Assembly: GCA_020723765.1 (NCBI GenBank)
Contig: DYIF01000010.1
Span: forward strand, 1-64,000
DNA from: Elusimicrobium minutum
Lineage (GTDB): Bacteria > Elusimicrobiota > Elusimicrobia > Elusimicrobiales > UBA9959
Reading direction: 5' to 3'
Length of the DNA stretch: 64,000 bases
Under the pieces are notes generated by a model. The model worked only from the letters and a program-made list of their open reading frames with translations, was not told where the DNA came from and searched no databases. The position numbers and the translations under genes were made by a program. Shown one piece after another: positions 1,641-55,155 of the stretch (position 1 is the first letter of the stretch; the number at the start of each line of letters is the position of its first letter).

Positions 1641-1714
1641 GCCAGGGTAGCTCAGCTGGTTAGAGCGGCGGTTTCGTAAACCGCAGGTCGAGGGTTCGAT
1701 TCCCTTCCCTGGCT
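1641..1714 (+). tRNA. tRNA-Thr(CGT)
   Basis: A full cloverleaf can be drawn. The acceptor stem GCCAGGG/CCCTGGC (1641-1647 with 1707-1713) is perfect; the D arm is GCTC/GAGC; the anticodon stem GCGGT/ACCGC closes the loop TTCGTAA with anticodon CGT, which reads ACG (threonine); the T arm is GAGGG-TTCGATT-CCCTT. The discriminator is T1714. CCA is not encoded and must be added by tRNA nucleotidyltransferase. The gene is directly followed by a structured repeat element that duplicates its 3' end. Confidence 0.95.
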
Positions 1715-1857
1715 TTTTTGCTAAGAAACAGCGGTAAGCTGTTTCGTGGGAATCGAAAGTCCGCAGGCCGAATTGAGCTATGCAAGAGGCCGAGGAGCGG
1801 CCCGCGAAAAAACGAGCGGTGAGCGAGTTTTATTTGCGGGAGATTCCCTTCCCTGGC
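1715..1857 (+). repeat. tRNA-linked structured element, copy 1 (Thr locus)
   Basis: No protein is supported here. The segment holds, in order: CTAAGAAA (1721-1728); a perfect 8-bp hairpin GAAACAGC/GCTGTTTC (1725-1732 with 1738-1745, loop GGTAA); GGGAATCGAA (1748-1757), the exact reverse complement of the tRNA T-arm bases 1695-1704; the block TCGAAAGTCCGCAG; GGCC-flanked sequence; a long imperfect hairpin 1801-1840 with GCGAAAAAA, loop GGTGA and TTTTATTTG; and at 1842-1857 a 16-base exact copy of the tRNA from T-loop base G57 to its last paired base (1698-1713). GGGAATC (1748-1754) can also pair with GATTCCC (1842-1848) and so close the whole element. The unit repeats with a period of about 145 bp. 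It is visibly GC-richer than its surroundings. A matching element follows tRNA-Arg at 54999-55155. Confidence 0.85.
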
Positions 1858-54925: not shown

Positions 54926-54998
54926 GCCCCCTTAGCTCAAAGGATAGAGCAGCTGCCTTCGAAGCAGTTGGTTAGAGGTTCGAGTCCTCTAGGGGGCG
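54926..54998 (+). tRNA. tRNA-Arg(TCG)
   Basis: The cloverleaf is clear: acceptor GCCCCCT/AGGGGGC (54926-54932 with 54991-54997), D arm GCTC/GAGC, anticodon stem GCTGC/GCAGT with loop CTTCGAA (anticodon TCG, reading CGA), T arm AGAGG-TTCGAGT-CCTCT, and discriminator G54998. CCA is not encoded. A structured repeat element that copies its 3' third follows immediately. Confidence 0.95.
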
Positions 54999-55155
54999 TG
55001 CTGGTTCTAAGAAATGCGAATAGCATTTCGCGAGGACTCGAAAGCCCGCAGCGAGCTTAATCATACAAGCGAGCGAGGGGCGGTCTGCGAAAAAATTTTC
55101 GGTGAGAAAATTTTATTTGTAGGAGAGTCCTCTAGGGGGCGTGCTGGTTCTAAGA
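54999..55155 (+). repeat. tRNA-linked structured element, copy 3 (Arg locus)
   Basis: The parts are in the same order as at the Thr locus. CTAAGAAA is followed by the hairpin GAAATGC/GCATTTC (55011-55017 with 55023-55029, loop GAATA). Next is GAGGACTCGAA (55032-55042), the exact reverse complement of the tRNA-Arg T-arm bases 54979-54989. Then come TCGAAAGCCCGCAG and a long hairpin from 55085 to 55122 with GCGAAAAAA (55087-55095), loop GGTGA and TTTTATTTG (55111-55119). At 55125-55155 there is a 31-base exact copy of 54982-55012, from T-loop base G57 through the tRNA end into CTAAGA. The period is 143 bases. GAGGACTC (55032-55039) can alternatively pair with GAGTCCTC (55125-55132). No protein is supported. 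Confidence 0.85.

Follow-up and report, generated by a model that had tools for sequence, protein, structure and literature searches.

The closest described counterparts of the elements reported here are the tRNA-linked repeats (TLRs) of E. coli, which were first described in 1978 and, according to the available text of PMC8144298, had no known function as of 2021. The same text, which cites Egan and Landy 1978 and Rudd 1999, puts the number of copies at 22, distributed over ten loci, and describes the last 18–19 bp of a TLR as a copy of the end of the upstream tRNA or rRNA (PMC8144298). One group of E. coli TLRs is covered by the Rfam family RtT (RF00391), which gave four matches in the tyrT region of E. 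coli, run as a positive control, and also matched 66 of 369 genomes of a class-wide gammaproteobacterial sample, behind Tyr, Gln, and Ser tRNAs. Here we describe a family of elements that shares the TLR plan and carries, in addition to the direct copy, an inverted segment matched to the T-arm of its own tRNA. In the available text of PMC8144298 we found no mention of such an inverted match.

Two element-bearing tRNA loci

The window, i.e. the whole 64,000-nt stretch of DNA analysed here, lies at one end of a 65-kb contig belonging to a 2.1-Mb genome in 32 contigs (C13, C22, C25, C26, and C29 of which end inside or close to elements of the kind described below). All features are on the forward strand. 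The gene for tRNA-Thr(CGU) occupies 1641–1714 as delimited by ARAGORN and by sequence, with T-arm positions 54–63 at 1695–1704. Downstream of it lie a hairpin, H (GAAACAGC-GGTAA-GCTGTTTC, 1725–1745), and a segment that we call the guide (1748–1757), which is the exact reverse complement of the T-arm bases (TTCGATTCCC at 1695–1704, GGGAATCGAA at 1748–1757) and forms the 5′ strand of a closing helix, P1. The core, delimited at its first part by covariation, consists of helix P2 (TCC/GGA) around hairpin Pb (1758–1800), followed by a long hairpin, Pc (CCCGCGAAAAAA...TTTTATTTGCGGG, 1801–1840), with GU pairs on the forward strand. A tail (1842–1858) repeats directly the 3′ end of tRNA-Thr from position 57 (1698–1714), and its first nucleotides pair with the guide. 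A second, truncated unit follows at 1859–2017, comprising the left end, a hairpin at 1870–1890, a guide at 1893–1902 identical to that of the first unit, and a core of a longer variant, without a tail.

The second locus, at tRNA-Arg(UCG) (54926–54998; T-arm positions 54–64 at 54979–54989), is built in the same way. Hairpin H (GAAATGC-GAATA-GCATTTC, 55011–55029) precedes a guide at 55032–55042 that is the exact reverse complement of the T-arm (TTCGAGTCCTC at 54979–54989, GAGGACTCGAA at 55032–55042). In the core, P2 and Pb (55043–55083) have a covarying P2 pair in its C-G version, and Pc (55084–55123) has a G-U pair, CUGC/GUAG. The tail (55125–55141) again repeats the host, here tRNA-Arg, from position 57 to its 3′ end, and the repeat runs on to 55155 (TGCTGGTTCTAAGA). 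The inverted matches that the initial annotation had noticed at the two loci are thus exact. Its argument that a plain target-site duplication cannot yield an inverted segment is also sound, as is its proposal that the guide can pair either with the T-arm (10–11 bp) or with the tail (7–8 bp).

Distribution and comparison with TLRs

A sequence search of the window genome returned dozens of related stretches, almost all adjoining tRNA genes, and an element stands behind 20 of the 43 tRNA genes and behind the tmRNA gene; the spread of such elements can reach half of a genome's tRNA genes. The elements are some 130–150 nt long, non-coding, and structured. A short spacer separates the tRNA from hairpin H, which is followed by the guide, the core, and the tail; the guide is the inverted complement of T-arm positions 54–63 or 54–64, and the tail a direct tRNA copy from position 57. 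The stem sequence of H varies between loci with its pairing preserved. Element-bearing tRNAs of the window genome are accompanied by an exact inverted copy of 9–12 nt and a direct tail copy of 15–20 nt, with the exception of Arg(tct), where the tail is present and the guide has decayed. For the rest of the 43 tRNAs, nearly all inverted or direct matches are of 8 nt or less, the exceptions being Leu(gag) and Gly(tcc), the latter with a flank truncated by the contig end. The repeat at Leu(gag) is rtT-like and includes a direct copy of 15 nt; because it differs from the main family, two TLR families are present in one genome. In this 3′ flank (L195), the guide GAAGGGAC is followed by GAGAACG and the tail copy, beside a run of N. 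A separate short tandem repeat (TTTTTGCTTAACGCAAAAATCGGAGGCTCTCC...) lies behind Ser(gct) (L188).

The window family and the TLRs are both short structured repeats situated directly 3′ of tRNA genes, and both close with a duplicate of the upstream RNA's 3′ terminus. TLRs lie directly 3′ of tRNA or rRNA genes, and the window family adjoins 20 tRNAs and the tmRNA in the same position; its direct copies of 15–20 nt compare with the 18–19 bp of 3′-end identity in TLRs; and, as a TLR locus contains one to five copies in tandem, so tandem arrays are found in the window genome at Thr, Leu(caa), Glu, Leu(cag), and Lys. The longer core variant also occurs in this genome. The arrays appear to break the assembly, which suggests that copy numbers are underestimated. 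The two differ in core sequence, in the start of the tail (position 58/59 in E. coli, 57 in the window family), and in range, the window family occupying many more tRNA types as well as tmRNA and having a guide that extends to position 54. As the elements share the TLR plan and gave no match to the Rfam RtT model at gathering or relaxed thresholds, the family is TLR-type in plan and not RtT by sequence; judged from its sequence, it is a new TLR variant.

The inverted segment is found in E. coli as well. The Tyr TLR copies have an inverted T-stem segment (10/10), the Lys copies read CGTGAAGGAT where CGTGCAGGAT is expected (9/10), and one Arg copy has an inverted segment of 8 nt; the 5S-linked copy has none longer than 7 nt. 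The rrnB T1-T2 terminator stretch of E. coli K-12 (L061, L388–L395) holds a TLR core (RrB) and a 5S tail copy without a clear inverted 5S segment. Across 15 gammaproteobacterial tRNA–RtT pairs, the segment ahead of GAGAAC agrees with its own T-stem and acceptor at 129 of 150 positions, against a mean of 99 and a maximum of 119 in permuted pairings. RtT and the window element therefore have in common a guide-core-tail plan with an inverted, covarying T-stem segment.

An Rfam search of the window elements returned no credible family other than tRNA, and group I or II introns, HDV-like, or other catalogued RNAs were set aside for lack of an Rfam match. The Theta ribozyme, an HDV-like double pseudoknot that processes tRNA at its 3′ end (PMC10879173), appears by inspection to differ in topology from P1-P2-Pb-Pc.

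Covariation between guide and T-arm

A covariance model built from 18 window-genome copies was used to search 295 genomes of the window's phylum and found relatives in 40 of them, a count that, with the strict filters applied, is a lower bound. A pattern scan of genome contigs gave mostly chance matches but found one locus, L092, which led to a 0.7-Mb genome (G061) with further copies. The resulting set of 65 loci thus represents the window's phylum and this one small genome. In it, we looked for copies whose segment disagrees with the adjacent T-arm, the kind of counter-example that the initial annotation had named. The guide is perfect to its own T-arm over 10 nt at 53 of the 65 loci and has at most one mismatch at 60, whereas permuting guides within groups (5000 shuffles) gave a mean of 7.8 perfect matches and a maximum of 17.

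The positions at which T-arms vary change in step with the guide. Pairs between T-arm and guide are G-C 33 times and A-T 28 times at position 57; A-T 33, G-C 17, T-A 12, and C-G two times at position 59; and C-G 35 and T-A 25 times at position 63. In the window genome and in its genus-mate G001, the tmRNA T-loop has TGC and both tmRNA guides have GCA, not GAA; the two tmRNAs differ at position 57 and their guides differ there correspondingly. Beyond the 10 nt, position 64 matches at 39 of 64 loci, where about 17 are expected, and the match is at chance level from position 65 onward. In the window genome and family f2 this stop is sharp, as if the segment were a slot of fixed length. Imperfect guides include the decayed one at Arg(tct) and those at Arg(cct), L288, and L330, which are mismatched at position 63 only and whose tails follow the host there; Arg(cct) retains a Val-type base at this position, and unit 1 of Leu(cag) retains the Glu guide base at position 64.

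The initial annotation went on to conclude that the element is customised to its host. Its core stands in that guide and adjacent T-arm vary together across many loci and genomes. As a statement about what happens at insertion it goes too far, because conserved T-arms leave mainly positions 57, 59, and 63 (55 in tmRNA) informative, and the choice of a matching target would explain most cases as well; T-arms are so alike that a single guide is often compatible with several tRNAs. A guide evolving faster than the core, considered as a sign of customisation, was unsupported (8.6% against 5.8% in close pairs). Nor does the guide track the tRNA significantly better than it tracks the tail (the tail is the worse of the two at 16 loci, the guide at 8).

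Fold and strand

RNAalifold applied to the 18 window-genome copies yields four helices, P1, P2, Pb, and Pc, with P1, the closing helix, formed by the guide and the first 7–8 nt of the tail. Over 42 distinct phylum copies, 92.2% of pair cells hold standard pairs, against 72.6% in shuffled and 33–49% in slid alignments, and the covariation score is 0.453 against 0.167 in shuffled ones; all four helices covary. Pc contains 54 G-U cells and 3 A-C cells, and it is therefore the tRNA-sense strand that folds, which is compatible with either RNA or single-stranded DNA. In the related Ser(cga) copies L303, L305, and L306, the stems of hairpin H are strongly divergent yet paired, and change at a higher rate than the remaining parts of these copies.

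Tails are better preserved at positions 57–63 than at 64–72 across the phylum (0.06 against 0.20 mismatches per site), and in G061 the first seven bases have 0.14 and the next nine 0.39 mismatches per site. Such a gradient is as expected if P1 stays useful while the remaining tail is a relic. The decay of the distal tail (0.20–0.39 mismatches per site) rules out a spare 3′ half for tRNA repair.

Mobility among relatives

To judge from comparisons of copies and genomes, the element is apparently mobile and spreads between tRNA genes. The cores at Glu and Leu(cag) show no differences in 82 positions and those of two Arg loci only three in 80, and the occupied tRNAs differ between relatives. In the one genus-mate compared, G001, elements stand at Asn and Gly(gcc), sites that in the window genome are empty or hold a decayed copy, and are absent from Val(gac), Arg(gcg), Arg(tct), Thr(cgt), and others; by eye, the element-free Arg(tct) site of G001 resembles the tail and flank of its window-genome counterpart. 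In G052 an element is found behind 4 of 32 tRNAs. Elements of at least three core classes stand behind many of the 37 tRNAs of G061 (L201–L239); in this genome a perfect inverted acceptor and an intact tail tend to be alternatives, rarely found together at one locus. In G001, another repeat (CCTGTCCGCCGAAGATATATCAGC...) appears inserted within elements at L249 and L256.

Two enzymes of repeat mobilisation were looked for, and each is missing from several carriers. RVT_1 is absent from the window genome, G001, G061, G013, G021, G027, and G052; Y1_Tnp is absent from G061, G013, G052, and G126, and has one weak match in the window genome. A retroelement or a repeat mobilised by Y1 enzymes (IS200/IS605, RAYT) was rejected because these enzymes are missing in many carrier genomes, and phage or plasmid cargo because no match to phage or plasmid sequences was found.

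How the match may arise

We favour the view that the segment is part of a TLR-type element in which guide pairing chooses the target and selection then keeps the helix, over templated inversion or an RNA switch, and hold it tentatively, with a confidence somewhat short of even. The element is situated where an insertion between T-loop positions 56 and 57 would put it, with the tRNA 3′ end in duplicate, one copy completing the tRNA and the other forming the tail behind the element; because the 3′ end is present twice, the tRNA remains intact. Three bases of the guide beyond P1 would pair with T54–C56 across the insertion point. A tRNA-sense single strand, whether RNA or single-stranded DNA, may thus recognise a new tRNA gene through pairing of the guide with the T-arm; this pairing would span the insertion point and position the element's end there, and copying past that point would create the new tail. 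If only matching hosts were entered, guide and host would agree, and P1 would be maintained by later selection. The data show the architecture, the covariation, the fold and its strand, and the differences in occupancy between relatives; from them we infer both the pairing-directed insertion and an enzyme that would carry it out.

Two known systems work in a comparable manner. A group I intron likewise pairs through one continuous guide strand on both sides of an insertion point, but the window element is too short, has no Rfam group I match, and leaves the host RNA intact without splicing. Elements of the IS200/IS605 type combine a hairpin with guide-to-target pairing in single-stranded DNA; however, the Y1 transposase is missing from several carriers, and the window element has a tail duplication.

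Target choice is favoured because guides retain a foreign base at position 63 or 64 (Arg(cct), L288, L330, and Leu(cag)), while at 63 the tails follow the host (Arg(cct), L288, and L330). The view as a whole also draws on the agreement of guides with their own T-arms far above permutation, the confinement of the match to positions 54–64, the covarying helices, the near-identical cores at different tRNAs, the tandem arrays, the different occupancy in G001, and the better preservation of tail positions 57–63. It is weakened by the want of a candidate enzyme, RVT_1 and Y1_Tnp being missing from several carriers; by the small number of informative T-arm positions, which leaves the same data compatible with templated copying or in-place coevolution; and by homologous exchange between copies, which could imitate spread. 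In addition, about nine G061 loci carry a perfect inverted acceptor strand beside a palindromic terminator-like hairpin, a feature that would not be expected from plain target choice and that suits templated copying or selection better.

Among the rivals, an insertion that copies its target in both orientations is unlikely on balance. A 3′ end lying just past the tRNA would snap back at a hairpin, copy the tRNA 3′ half in antisense as far as position 54, and switch to the core, the tail being the target-site duplication. The G061 loci lend themselves to this reading, since they form near-perfect palindromes running from tRNA acceptor through terminator-like hairpin, inverted acceptor, and H to inverted T-arm. 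So do the tmRNA guides, with GCA opposite TGC, and the Arg(tct) locus, where the left arm of H equals host flank, is repeated behind the tail, and is similar to the element-free G001 site, the right arm being its inverse. Copying of this kind fits poorly with a match that stops at position 64 in the window genome and family f2, like a fixed slot, and with the Glu and Val-type bases kept at Leu(cag) and Arg(cct).

A function in place is likewise on the improbable side. The element would be read together with the tRNA, pairing of the guide with T-arm or tail would act as a switch or processing signal, and selection would keep the match, mobility being rare. The strong structural covariation and the tRNA-sense strand are in its favour, as are the Ser(cga) elements L303, L305, and L306, which appear to have persisted across species while acquiring compensatory changes, and the E. 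coli TLRs, which are transcribed and some of which yield processed sRNAs (available text of PMC8144298). Predicted ensembles of tRNA plus element, which ignore co-transcriptional folding and modification, favour guide:T-arm pairing at 9 of 16 window-genome loci, and a switch affecting the tRNA, as the initial annotation had envisaged, is thermodynamically possible according to these models. Against such a function stand the limited occupancy (20 of 43 tRNAs in the window genome, 4 of 32 in G052), its differences between relatives, and the terminator-like hairpin that parts tRNA from element in G061 and in many f2 loci of window-genome relatives.

tRNA genes are common targets of integrases, whose insertion leaves the 3′ end directly duplicated. 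The elements might accordingly be remnant attachment sites, in which the tail would be the copied attachment site and the inverted T-arm the core site of an integrase, and both the use of tRNAs and the direct copy are typical of integrases. We nonetheless regard this as very improbable, as the elements are about 130 nt long with a conserved covarying fold and no phage or plasmid match, and many tRNA types each have their own tail, whereas an integrating element carries the end of one tRNA. Chance likeness of conserved T-arms, which vary at so few positions that a guide often suits several tRNAs, has a negligible claim in the face of the permutation tests and the matches of 8 nt or less at almost all element-free tRNAs.

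Implications for the TLR family

Mobile structured nucleic acids in several phyla, including the TLRs of E. coli, could be finding tRNA and tmRNA genes by means of an antisense guide laid across positions 56/57, either rewriting the guide from the host or selecting hosts by it. We consider so broad a generalisation doubtful; if true, it would represent site-specific insertion that is programmed by base pairing and poor in protein. The matched antisense strand, common to the window family and to the RtT elements of E. coli, provides a concrete handle on how TLRs move or act. It is a testable clue to how these elements choose or mark their host tRNA, as it names the bases to mutate, and the test can be made in E. 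coli.
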